A DNA stretch of 64,000 nt from Luminiphilus sp. Its GTDB lineage: Bacteria; Pseudomonadota; Gammaproteobacteria; Pseudomonadales; Halieaceae. Of this stretch, positions 6,988 to 11,859 are shown one piece after another (the stretch's first letter is position 1; every line of letters starts with the position of its first letter). The stretch is from assembly GCA_016779445.1 (NCBI GenBank), contig JADHNP010000002.1:22493-86492 (forward strand), read 5' to 3'. A program made the position numbers and the translations under genes. The notes under the pieces were generated by a model that was not told the origin of the DNA, made no database searches, and was given only the letters and a program-made list of their open reading frames with translations.

Positions 6988-7157
6988 ACCCCTCAACCGT
7001 CTGTGCCAGTGGCGCAAATGATAAAGCTTTAGATCACTGAAGCGTCAACAAACCCAAAATCACCCCTAGCACCAATCGAAGAGATCTGATAGTTTGCGTC
7101 GCCCCGAAAGAGAACTGGCGGTGTATGCCGCGCGACACAAAGAGGGAAATCATCATC

Positions 7158-7931
7158 ATGGCCAGTCGAAAACCCGCCAGTGCCAAGGTCAAAAAAGCAC
7201 CTGCTAAAAAGAAAGCAGTAGCCAAAAAGGCGCCCGCTAAAAAGAAAGCAGTAGCTAAAAAGGCGCCCGCTAAAAAGAAAGCAGTAGCCAAAAAGGCGCC
7301 CGCTAAAAAGAACGCAGTAGCCAAAAAGGCGCCCGCTAAAAAGAACGCAGTAGCCAAAAAGGCGCCCGCTAAAAAGAACGCAGTAGCCAAAAAGGCGCCC
7401 GCTAAAAAACAAACAGCAGTCAAAAAAGTAGCCGCTCACACCGCGAGAAAAGCACCTGCAAAGGCAGCAACCTCAGCCAAAAGAAAGCCAAAATTGGCAC
7501 GGGCGGTTGGTCAGCTGCAAAACTTCGATGATTTCAAGCCCTACAAGCCCGGACGCGGTGAAAGCTACATGAACGATGAACAAATTGAGCACTTCCGCGG
7601 TATCTTGCTCAATTGGCGAGGGGAACTTGTTGACGAAGTCACGCGCACGGTCTCCCACATGAAAGACGAGGCCGCGAACTTCCCTGATCCAGCTGACCGA
7701 GCAACGCAAGAAGAGGAATTCAGCCTCGAACTGCGAACAAGGGACAGAGAGCGAAAACTCATCAAGAAAATAGATTCCACACTTGATCGGCTACAAAGTG
7801 ACGACTACGGCTATTGTGACGCCTGCGGCATCGAGATCGGGGTCCAACGCCTTGAAGCTCGACCCACCGCTACGCTTTGCATCGACTGTAAAACGCTGGC
7901 TGAAATAAAGGAAAGACAGGAACTGGGTTGA
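7158..7931 (+). CDS. dksA: RNA polymerase-binding transcription factor DksA with long Lys/Ala/Pro repeat N-terminal tail
   Basis: C-terminal DksA domain with [10 protein letters not shown]...CIDCK zinc finger; N-terminus (KKAPAKKxAVA)n; ORF opens at 7125, ATG at 7158 preferred. Confidence 0.93.
7191..7421 (+). repeat. 33-bp tandem repeat, about 7 units (KKAPAKK[K/N/Q]AVA)
   Basis: Units read directly: aaaaaggcgcccgctaaaaagaaagcagtagcc and near-identical copies starting at 7191, 7224, 7257, 7290, 7323, 7356, 7389. Confidence 0.97.
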
Positions 7932-8814: not shown

Positions 8815-8822
8815 GGTGTTAC
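8806..8822. promoter_or_regulatory. Inverted repeat GTAACA-N5-TGTTAC upstream of cbrB-like gene; candidate activator binding site
   Basis: Perfect 6-bp arms read directly; half-site recurs downstream of the same gene. Confidence 0.5.
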
Positions 8823-8887
8823 GTTTTCACTCGCCCGGTGACGCCGAGTGGTTACACTGCCGAAAATCAACCAAGGCGGAGAGGGCC

Positions 8888-10237
8888 ATGCAAGTACGCC
8901 TAATTGACTCATGCCAAAAGTTGTTCGAAAAAATTCGGGCGGCAGTGGCTGAACACGATATTGAAGTCGTGCACGACACTCACTTTGATCCGGAAGGACA
9001 AGAATGGCTAGGTCAGCAGTCAGACCTTATCGTCATCGGCGACTATGATGATAGCCAGAATCCCGGCTCAATCCAGAAAGCTTGCTGGCCAACACCGGTG
9101 GTGCGCCTGTCAAATCAGGTGGATACCGCTACTGCACTGGCCGCTGGAAGAGAGGGAGCGCTGGATATCTATGATCGCTCCGCCGCCATAGGAGACGTCA
9201 CTCAGTGGCTCGTGCAACTCTGTGCCGAGAATGCCAAGCTCACGACAGAGCGCGCACAAGGAAGGGAATTCCAAAGCAAACACTGCCCGGCGATGCGGTC
9301 CTTAAAAAACATGGCTCTGCGAGTCGCGCAAACCGACTCTACAGTGCTGATTACCGGTGAAACGGGAACAGGTAAAGAGTTGGCTGCGCGGCAGGTGCAC
9401 ACTGTCAGCGAACGCCGAATGGCGCCATTGATTACAGTCAATTGTGCCGCGATTCCCGATACATTGATCGAATCTGAACTCTTCGGCTACGAAAAGGGCG
9501 CTTTTACGGGCGCGACGAGCAACCATATCGGACTGATTGAGGCTGCTGATGGGGGCACTTTGTTTCTTGATGAGATTGGTGAGCTGCCACTAGCGGCTCA
9601 AGCGAGACTGCTTCGATTCCTACAGGAAGGGGAAATTCGACAAATCGGTTCGGTCGTCACCAAGCGCGTCAATGTGCGTCTCATTTGCGCGACCCATCGG
9701 GATCTTGCCCAATTGGCCGCCAAAAACGATTTTCGCAAAGACCTGTTTTACAGGATCGACGTGCTGCGACTCGATGTCCCGCCTCTGCGAGATCGTGGGG
9801 AAGACATTATAGATATGGCTCAATGGTTCATTGAGCAGTTGGCCGTTAAGCTGGGAGTACCCCCGCGACCGCTTGACCTTCTCAGTCAGCGACTGATTTC
9901 CGGACATCACTGGCCGGGTAATGTCAGAGAACTGCAGAATGTGATTGAAAGGGCATTGGTAATGTCCACCGGTCCCACCCTGCAGATCGATTTACCCAGT
10001 GAAGCAAACGCCGTCGAACCGAGCCTTTCAGAACCACCCGCTTCTCCGTCATCAACAGAGGTCATCGAGTCATCGGACGAGCTCTCTTTGGAAGACTACT
10101 TTCAGCGCTTTGTCCTCGAGCATCAAGAAGCCATGAATGAGACCGAGTTAGCACAAAAACTCGGCATTAGCCGCAAATGCCTGTGGGAGCGTCGACAGCG
10201 CTTTGGCATACCCCGCAGCAAACAAAAATTAGCCTGA
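8888..10237 (+). CDS. cbrB: CbrB-like sigma-54-dependent transcriptional activator with degenerate receiver domain
   Basis: AAA+ domain with GETGTGKE Walker A, GAFTGA loop; C-terminus LSLEDYFQRFVLEHQEAMNETELAQKLGISRKCLWERRQRFGIPR closely resembles Pseudomonas CbrB as remembered; located between gluQRS and pcnB as in Pseudomonas. Confidence 0.85.
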   Translation: MQVRLIDSCQKLFEKIRAAVAEHDIEVVHDTHFDPEGQEWLGQQSDLIVIGDYDDSQNPGSIQKACWPTPVVRLSNQVDTATALAAGREGALDIYDRSAAIGDVTQWLVQLCAENAKLTTERAQGREFQSKHCPAMRSLKNMALRVAQTDSTVLITGETGTGKELAARQVHTVSERRMAPLITVNCAAIPDTLIESELFGYEKGAFTGATSNHIGLIEAADGGTLFLDEIGELPLAAQARLLRFLQEGEIRQIGSVVTKRVNVRLICATHRDLAQLAAKNDFRKDLFYRIDVLRLDVPPLRDRGEDIIDMAQWFIEQLAVKLGVPPRPLDLLSQRLISGHHWPGNVRELQNVIERALVMSTGPTLQIDLPSEANAVEPSLSEPPASPSSTEVIESSDELSLEDYFQRFVLEHQEAMNETELAQKLGISRKCLWERRQRFGIPRSKQKLA

Positions 10238-10250
10238 GCAAGGCAGCCTC

Positions 10251-10292
10251 AGTGCAGATAAGTAACAGCGAAGTGCAAATACGTAACACTGT
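10251..10292 (+). promoter_or_regulatory. Tandem 21-bp direct repeats (agtgcaRatamgtaacaSYGW) = candidate upstream activating sequences
   Basis: agtgcagataagtaacagcga / agtgcaaatacgtaacactgt, exact 21-bp period; about 85-125 bp upstream of the -12 element. Confidence 0.55.
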
Positions 10293-10362
10293 TGCCCACG
10301 ACACTGAGTCAAATTAGGTCAAAAAATGAACAACTACCTGTTTATCGACAATTTTTACAAAG

Positions 10363-10378
10363 TGGCACACAACCTGCT
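10363..10378 (+). promoter_or_regulatory. Candidate sigma-54 promoter TGGCACacaacCTGCT (GG-N10-GC)
   Basis: GG at 10364-10365 and GC at 10376-10377 with 10-nt spacing; adjacent to a sigma-54 activator gene. Confidence 0.65.
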
Positions 10379-10388
10379 GTATTCAAGG

Positions 10389-10494
10389 GAGAGCCAAAAT
10401 AATAAAAAGTGGCCCAATAAAAATAACGATGTCATAACGGACCTGGGTGGGGGAGGAAACTTCCCCATGTTTCGTTGTACCCCCCGCATTTTTT
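10389..10494 (+). ncRNA. Putative CrcZ-like Hfq/Crc-binding small RNA (about 105 nt)
   Basis: Downstream of sigma-54 promoter; contains AAAATAATAAAAA (10396-10408) and AATAAAAATAA (10416-10426) motifs; ends at hairpin plus T6; cbrB-sRNA-pcnB position matches Pseudomonas crcZ. TSS inferred from -12 spacing. Confidence 0.55.
10447..10494 (+). terminator. Possible rho-independent terminator: GTGGGGG...CCCCCGC followed by A T6
   Basis: 7-bp stem (one G.U) between 10447-10453 and 10481-10487, then T6 at 10489-10494. Confidence 0.5.
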
Positions 10495-10587
10495 CAGCAC
10501 TCCCGGACTACTCGCGTGCTCCCTTCGCTATAGCTTTCCGTGGCAGCGTTACCGCGCCCGCTGCCAAATCGTGGGTAAGCCCCTGAT

Positions 10588-11859
10588 GTGCAAACTGCTG
10601 AGCGCCCTACTATGAGGCTTGACCCTACTGCCTTTTCCAAGGGGGCATTGCAGGTTGTCGCGCATCTGCAGCGTTCGGGCTTTGAAGCCTATGTGGTGGG
10701 AGGCGCCATTCGCGATCTATTGTTGGGCAAGCAACCTAAAGATTTTGACATTGCCACTAACGCCACGCCTGAAGAGATCAAGCAATGCTTTCGGAACGCG
10801 CGGATCATTGGCCGGCGCTTTCAAATCGTCCATGTCCGAGCAGGTGGCGAGATAATCGAGGTCACCACCTTCCGAGGACACCATGATGCCGGTCAATCCA
10901 ATAAAACTGCTCAAGCAGCCCAATCTGGGCGACTTTTGCGCGATAACGTATACGGCACCCTTGAAGAAGACTCTTTTCGGCGTGATCTGACCATCAATGC
11001 CCTGTATTACAACACCACCACCCATCAACTCATCGATCTGCTGAACGGTGCTGATGACATCAGCGCACAACTGATCAGAATCATCGGGAAACCATTCGAT
11101 CGCTATACGGAAGATCCCGTTCGCATGCTCAGGGTAGTCCGTTTTGCCGCCCGATTGGGCTTCGATCTGGAAGGCGATACAGAGGCTGCTATTGGCGAAG
11201 CCCGCCATCTACTCGCGGATATCCCGACTGCGAGGCTCTTTGATGAATGGCTGAAGCTCTTCATGAATGGGTTCTCTGAGCCCACCTTTTTGCTTCTGTC
11301 GCACTTCGATTTGTTGTCCCTGCTCATGGGTGACAACGTCAGCATTAGTGAGTCCAAAGAAGGCGCGTACGCGTTGCAGAAAAAAGCCCTCAAAAATACG
11401 GACCAGCGCGTTGCCGACGGGCGTCCAGTCACCCCCGCCTTCCTTTTAGCGGCACTCTACTGGCCCGCTGCAGAGCACCGCAGCGCTGCACTTGCCGCAG
11501 GCGGCGAAGCACCCATTCAAGCCATGCACAGTGCGGGTCAGCAGATTGTTCTGGAAGCCTGCCGCAGACTCACCGTACCGAAACGTTTCTCGCTAGCCAT
11601 GCGGGATATTTGGGATCTTCAGCCGCGGCTAGAGCGTATGCAGCCAAAAAAAGTGCGGGACCTGCTAGCGAACAGATGGTTTAGAGCTGCTTTTGATCTA
11701 CTCCTGCTCAGAGAGCAGACGAGCAACATGTCGACTCACTGCAGCGAGTTCTGGGAGCACAAACAGGCGCAATATCCTGAACTGGTTGGCAGCGCGAGAG
11801 GCAGGTCAGAAAAACCAGCTTCCCGTGGCCGTCGGCGCAGGCGCCCCCCCAATCCATGA
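10588..11859 (+). CDS. pcnB: Poly(A) polymerase I
   Basis: AYVVGGAIRDLLLGKQPKDFDIATNATPEEI nucleotidyltransferase motif and basic C-terminal tail; GTG start at 10588 or ATG at 10612. Confidence 0.94.
   Translation: MQTAERPTMRLDPTAFSKGALQVVAHLQRSGFEAYVVGGAIRDLLLGKQPKDFDIATNATPEEIKQCFRNARIIGRRFQIVHVRAGGEIIEVTTFRGHHDAGQSNKTAQAAQSGRLLRDNVYGTLEEDSFRRDLTINALYYNTTTHQLIDLLNGADDISAQLIRIIGKPFDRYTEDPVRMLRVVRFAARLGFDLEGDTEAAIGEARHLLADIPTARLFDEWLKLFMNGFSEPTFLLLSHFDLLSLLMGDNVSISESKEGAYALQKKALKNTDQRVADGRPVTPAFLLAALYWPAAEHRSAALAAGGEAPIQAMHSAGQQIVLEACRRLTVPKRFSLAMRDIWDLQPRLERMQPKKVRDLLANRWFRAAFDLLLLREQTSNMSTHCSEFWEHKQAQYPELVGSARGRSEKPASRGRRRRRPPNP

Follow-up and report, generated by a model that had tools for sequence, protein, structure and literature searches.

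The question raised by this locus was whether the 350-bp gap between a cbrB-like gene and pcnB in Luminiphilus sp. (Halieaceae) holds a relative of CrcZ, the Pseudomonas 'decoy' RNA used in choosing between food sources. Reviews describe the CbrAB-CrcZ system as confined to Pseudomonas and Azotobacter (PMC8871633, PMC6296734), and a literature search, with most subscription journals outside its reach, found no earlier report of loci such as those described here. An earlier note on this DNA had proposed that the gap encodes a CbrB-driven RNA of about 105 nt belonging to the CrcZ class. We analysed the gap within a window of 64,000 nucleotides (contig JADHNP010000002.1) and in related genomes; positions given below are those of the window, and all features lie on its forward strand.

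The gap follows the cbrB-like gene for a sigma-54 activator (8816-10237, likely start ATG 8888) and is bounded downstream by pcnB (10588-11859, likely start ATG 10614). Further upstream, at 7125-7931, the window encodes a DksA with a long Lys/Ala-rich, histone H1-like N-terminal repeat tail, whose match to the Pfam family HC2 was below its cut-off.

Conservation was determined with BLASTN, using positions 10205-10640 as the query against 59 related genomes. Matches were obtained in the genome of origin and in 30 congeners with 70-92% identity, and mostly only about 10390-10476 aligned. Column identity in the 31 aligned gaps was about 0.9 within 10393-10472, and 0.5 or less past 10483. The conserved block starts where a transcript start 12 nt past the GC of the -12 element would fall, in agreement with the start near 10389 that had been predicted. 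From the limits of the block the RNA is therefore placed at 10389 to about 10477, giving a length of 89 nt instead of about 105 nt. The T6 run at 10489-10494, where the RNA had been thought to end, was unconserved in the congeners; the conserved terminator is the hairpin GGGGGAG-GAAA-CTTCCCC at 10449-10466, with a U-rich tail that runs to about 10477. Judged from this conservation and from the covariance model described below, 10389-10477 is a conserved non-coding RNA gene, with transcription as the predicted outcome.

Two putative A-rich Hfq/Crc motifs are found within the RNA. The first, AAAATAATAAAAA (10396-10408), is predicted to form a loop on a 3-bp GCC/GGC stem in which 10393-10395 pair with 10411-10413, and the second, AATAAAAATAA (10416-10426), is predicted to be single-stranded. 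Together they carry copies of AANAANAA at 10398, 10401, 10416 and 10419. Immediately 5' of the terminator lies a nearly invariant segment, GGACCUGGGU (10439-10448), which occurs in similar form in Spongiibacter, Dasania and other families. Other invariant or nearly invariant parts of the RNA were AGAG, AATAANAA, GGCC, the second A-rich tract, ACGGACCTGG, GGGGAAG and CTTCCCC. Base-pair support was weak: double compensatory changes were absent from the ten base pairs examined, so that one-sided G-U changes are the sole support for the GCC/GGC stem.

The RNA lies directly 5' of pcnB and in the same orientation, and could for this reason act in cis on pcnB, as a leader or attenuator, instead of being a free small RNA. 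However, it is closed by the conserved terminator some 137 nt short of the likely pcnB ATG, the sequence past the terminator is unconserved, and the distance from the RNA to pcnB varies freely among relatives. In Pseudomonas, moreover, an independent small RNA occupies the corresponding position between cbrB and pcnB, which also counts against a leader, and we regard this explanation as very unlikely. A small protein gene was likewise considered, as an open frame of 86 codons from ATG 10326 crosses the RNA region, and in most members of the window's own subclade no stop interrupts it across the RNA core. Stops or frameshifts break this frame in the other subclades, and its start codon lies 5' of the promoter and is unconserved even within the window's subclade. 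The frame was rejected as a gene, and coding function in this region is hardly credible.

Upstream of the conserved non-coding RNA we found a sigma-54 -24/-12 promoter, TGGCAC-N5-CTGCT (TGGCACacaacCTGCT), with GG-N10-GC spacing at 10363-10378, and two GTAACA sites. The R1-like site (10262-10267) has a conserved position near -101 relative to the -24 element, and the R2-like site (10283-10288) follows it at 21 bp. Both elements had been pointed out before, as two GTAACA-containing direct repeats and a GG-N10-GC element at 10363-10378, and the latter is conserved across congeners. TGGCAY-N5-NTGC was present in 31/31 genus gaps, at a nearly constant distance to the terminator. R1 and R2 subsites, as GTAAC(A), were also present in all 31, 21-23 bp apart; relative to the -24 element they lie near -101 and -80, with one case at -112 and -90. 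In P. putida the CbrB subsites are TGTTAC (F1) and GTAACA (R1, R2) with 20-25 bp between centres, and GTAACA is a mutationally tested CbrB subsite (PMC6296734). Spacing and position of GTAACA in the genus agree with these rules, and CrcZ's combination of a sigma-54 promoter with CbrB subsites upstream, spaced by 20-25 bp, is found here with R1 and R2 as the subsites. The canonical F1 subsite TGTTAC was absent from the genus gaps; it was present in loci L005, L006, L110 and f23.

In 3000 dinucleotide shuffles of the 350-bp gap, the sigma-54 site arose by chance with P = 0.004, and a pair of GTAACA or four copies of AANAANAA each with P = 0.010. Conservation tests these elements more strongly, and in the 31-gap alignment the GTAACA and -24/-12 sites stand out as conserved upstream of the RNA. 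The order of two GTAAC(A), sigma-54 promoter, two A-rich tracts and terminator was common to the congeners. The alignment of related gaps, which the earlier note had put forward as a check, thus bore out its promoter, its A-rich motifs and the presence of a terminator, the position of the last being corrected as described above.

Next we compared the RNA with known families. At the gathering threshold, Rfam gave nothing in the whole window except two tRNAs. Among 4227 Rfam families, CrcZ (RF01675) scored best on the RNA stretch, with 14.6 bits and an E-value of 0.07 at model positions 256-380 of 398. This is far below the gathering cut-off of 95 bits, so by Rfam's own threshold the RNA is not a CrcZ; a search of its own genome with RF01675 gave no match. 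An STnc470 match in the gap (E 4) was put down to chance. Higher scores were obtained in relatives, with 23.8 bits (E 3e-4, model 276-379) in the congener G016 and E-values of 1e-5 to 7e-4, mostly at about 271-380, in other Halieaceae. In the reverse direction, a covariance model (R1) built from 31 congener RNAs matched a Pseudomonas-type CrcZ 3' end with an E-value of 0.0014, and other such ends more weakly. The RNA is probably homologous to the 3' third of CrcZ, judging from a similarity that is weak but reciprocal and whose score alone is no proof. Much of the weight of homology is carried by synteny and promoter architecture. As in CrcZ, the RNA is located between cbrB and pcnB and contains more than one ARN/AANAANAA tract, both of its two being conserved in the genus.

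The R1 model found one locus in 53/58 genomes of the genus and matched 128/141 Halieaceae genomes, covering 25/28 genera. Wherever both were mapped, the locus adjoined cbrB. We also surveyed other families of the order, with one genome each, for a sigma-54 site 3' of cbrB that was preceded by GTAAC/GTTAC and followed by at least two AANAANAA. Such CbrB-linked CrcZ-like loci were found in 14/20 sampled families, as compared to 0.025 predicted by shuffles; one of the 14 (f23) gave more than 300 bits with Rfam CrcZ and was taken as Pseudomonadaceae. Rfam CrcZ itself matched 58/296 genomes of the order, most of them below the curated cut-off. Synteny, CbrB subsites, a sigma-54 promoter, A-rich motifs and a weak but reciprocal covariance similarity support the earlier suggestion of a CrcZ-class RNA outside the pseudomonads. 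In Dasania (L006 7311-8307) the space from cbrB to pcnB was occupied by two complete CrcZ-like units in tandem, both equipped with CbrB sites, a sigma-54 promoter and a terminator of their own.

The activator encoded upstream has a degenerate receiver-like N-terminus, an intact AAA+ core (GETGTGKE, GAFTGA) and a C-terminal HTH. By its sigma-54 activator core with GAFTGA, its HTH and its orthologous position it belongs with CbrB, and the receiver with phosphoacceptor Asp52, paired with CbrA, is missing. The acceptor Asp is replaced by Gly and the conserved Lys by Arg, and the receiver domain gave no Pfam match in the window CbrB even at E 10; with HHalign the N-terminus of the window's clade was still related to receivers (probability 96). 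In other Halieaceae and relatives, CbrB carries a complete receiver domain (Pfam E about 1e-22 to 1e-26) in which Asp52, Thr and Lys are all present. Within the window's genus, 29/29 proteins examined differed from the canonical receiver, in three ways. The window's clade (n=11) has Asp to Gly together with Lys to Arg; a second clade (n=8; L092-L099) has Asp to Glu with the other receiver residues retained, and may be a natural phosphomimic; a third group (n=10) retains Asp and has the switch Thr changed to Ala. GETGTGKE and GAFTGA were retained in the genus, and the AAA+ core was present in every member examined.

CbrA is a transporter-kinase of about 1000 residues, and matches to it were found in genomes from 25/28 Halieaceae genera. 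Other Halieaceae have the full protein (SSS transporter and kinase) together with a canonical CbrB receiver. A CbrA search gave no match in any genome of the window's genus, including two single-contig genomes, and in the window as in the genus gluQ directly precedes cbrB, with cbrA missing between them. With cbrA gone and a receiver that no longer appears open to phosphorylation, CbrB is probably CbrA-independent here. P. putida CbrB reportedly depends little on phosphorylation, which makes loss of the kinase plausible without loss of function (PMC6296734). The description of the RNA as CbrB-driven thus needs the qualifier that CbrB lacks both CbrA and a phosphorylatable receiver in this organism. 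In one other Halieaceae genus, g29 (G240, G343, G344, G345), the kinase part of CbrA was observed alone (query residues about 636-993), in open frames about 394-404 codons long, as though the part for the transporter had disappeared.

Loss of cbrA, a receiver degenerating in several different ways and only two remaining A-rich tracts could also indicate a decaying CrcZ remnant, a relic under weak constraint. Against this, the RNA is retained in most genomes of the genus (53/58, as given above), the CbrB sites, promoter and AAA+ core are retained in all members examined, and no part of the gap is better conserved than the RNA core. Decay is accordingly a poor explanation of the locus, and we hold it to be very improbable.

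The earlier note had named absence of rpoN and hfq from the genome as grounds for dropping its proposal; both are present. Hfq is encoded in the order miaA-hfq-hflX (neighbours named from their sequences) with SIYLVNGIKL intact, and RpoN is encoded in the genome as well. With P. aeruginosa Crc as the query (identical to PDB 4jg3), two related proteins were detected, one with and one without ExoIII catalytic motifs. The non-catalytic protein (G000 C109) has QDTH, GGWELM and SHHAP, and its catalytic paralogue (C92) has QEIK, ADWNT and SDHAP. Judged by these sequence motifs, the ExoIII-like protein without catalytic residues is the Crc candidate.

A possible regulon was searched for in 1.6 Mb of one complete congener genome (G006), with 1300 genes called by a simple script and starts that are approximate. 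AANAANAANAA occurred within -30 to +15 of 16 gene starts, in comparison to 7.3 +/- 2.7 for 60 permuted patterns, none of which (0/60) reached 16. There was no excess of AANAANAANAA at -60 to -30 or inside genes of this genome. About 10/16 of these genes look catabolic as compared to 3-4/16 of controls with equally A-rich starts (Fisher P 0.01-0.04), the categories having been assigned by the author, unblinded. By Pfam the 16 include two AMP-binding enzymes (acyl-CoA synthetases), acyl-CoA dehydrogenase, KshA, BKACE, enoyl-CoA hydratase, short-chain dehydrogenase, TauD, amidohydrolase, cyclase and others. The enrichment speaks for Hfq/Crc-type control in the genus, and not specifically for this RNA as a decoy. 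Within the window itself AANAANAA was seen at gene starts in two weak cases only, which are uninformative.

The same gene set bears on whether the RNA acts by base pairing, with GGACCUGGGU as the seed for target mRNAs and the A-rich tracts merely loading it on Hfq. Near-invariance of GGACCUGGGU in the genus and its similarity across families are more than a plain terminator foot needs. However, 7-9-mers complementary to GGACCUGGGU showed no enrichment near gene starts (1300 genes, one congener), the A-rich tracts are as conserved as GGACCUGGGU, and it is the number of tracts, not the seed, that varies among families. We consider a base-pairing RNA unlikely, though less so than the other alternatives. 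The nearly invariant GGACCUGGGU counts against a pure A-rich decoy, as such a role leaves it unexplained.

Our preferred reading, to which we give a probability of about 0.78, is that the locus encodes a minimal CrcZ-type Hfq/Crc decoy of about 89 nt that would be switched by CbrB and would now be independent of CbrA. The CbrB homologue encoded just upstream would bind the two GTAACA sites and switch on the sigma-54-dependent RNA. Its two ARN-repeat (AANAANAA) tracts would, jointly with Crc, engage Hfq at its distal face, and the RNA could then act as a decoy that frees the A-rich ribosome-binding sites of catabolic mRNAs. The RNA would be a minimal relative of the Pseudomonas CrcZ 3' module, and the output of CbrB may be set by its expression, by another ligand or by constitutive activity. 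What the sequences show is conservation, anatomy, synteny, genes for RpoN, Hfq and a Crc-like protein, the loss of cbrA and the change in the receiver; transcription, CbrB activation, Hfq/Crc binding, decoy action and CbrA-independence are inferred. We also lean, if only slightly, towards a wider reading, in which a two-component switch became a one-component switch, with a genus-wide two-tract CrcZ decoy, a kinase-less CbrB and three receiver fates, and in which the CbrB-CrcZ pair would be ancestral within the order instead of exclusive to the pseudomonads.

New here are the reduced size of the RNA, its order-wide relatives against the published exclusivity, and the uncoupling from CbrA in the genus. 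The loci suggest that the CbrAB-CrcZ switch is much older and order-wide, reaching into marine heterotrophs, and that it can operate in the absence of its sensor. With so short an RNA, the minimum number of A-rich tracts in a working Hfq/Crc decoy could be tested directly, and the three receiver variants are natural tests of CbrB working without phosphorylation.

The closest known system is Pseudomonas CrcZ, grouped with CrcY and CrcX. The RNA resembles it in its position between cbrB and pcnB, GTAACA subsites, sigma-54 promoter, A-rich ARN repeats, 3' hairpin terminator and covariance similarity to the last third. It differs in length, about 89 nt as compared to 407 nt, with the 5' two thirds missing, and in its terminator foot (GACCUGGGUGGGG); the genus also lacks the F1 subsite and CbrA. 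The two A-rich tracts compare with six in P. aeruginosa CrcZ (PMC4063720), and titration capacity per molecule would therefore be low. In comparison to CbrA/CbrB of Pseudomonas and Azotobacter, the AAA+ core, HTH and gene neighbourhood of CbrB are alike in the window's genus, whereas CbrA is missing and the receiver is unphosphorylatable or altered. Hfq/Crc repression through A-rich operators of the amiE type has a putative parallel here in hfq, a non-catalytic Crc-like gene and the enrichment of AANAANAANAA at mostly catabolic gene starts in a congener.
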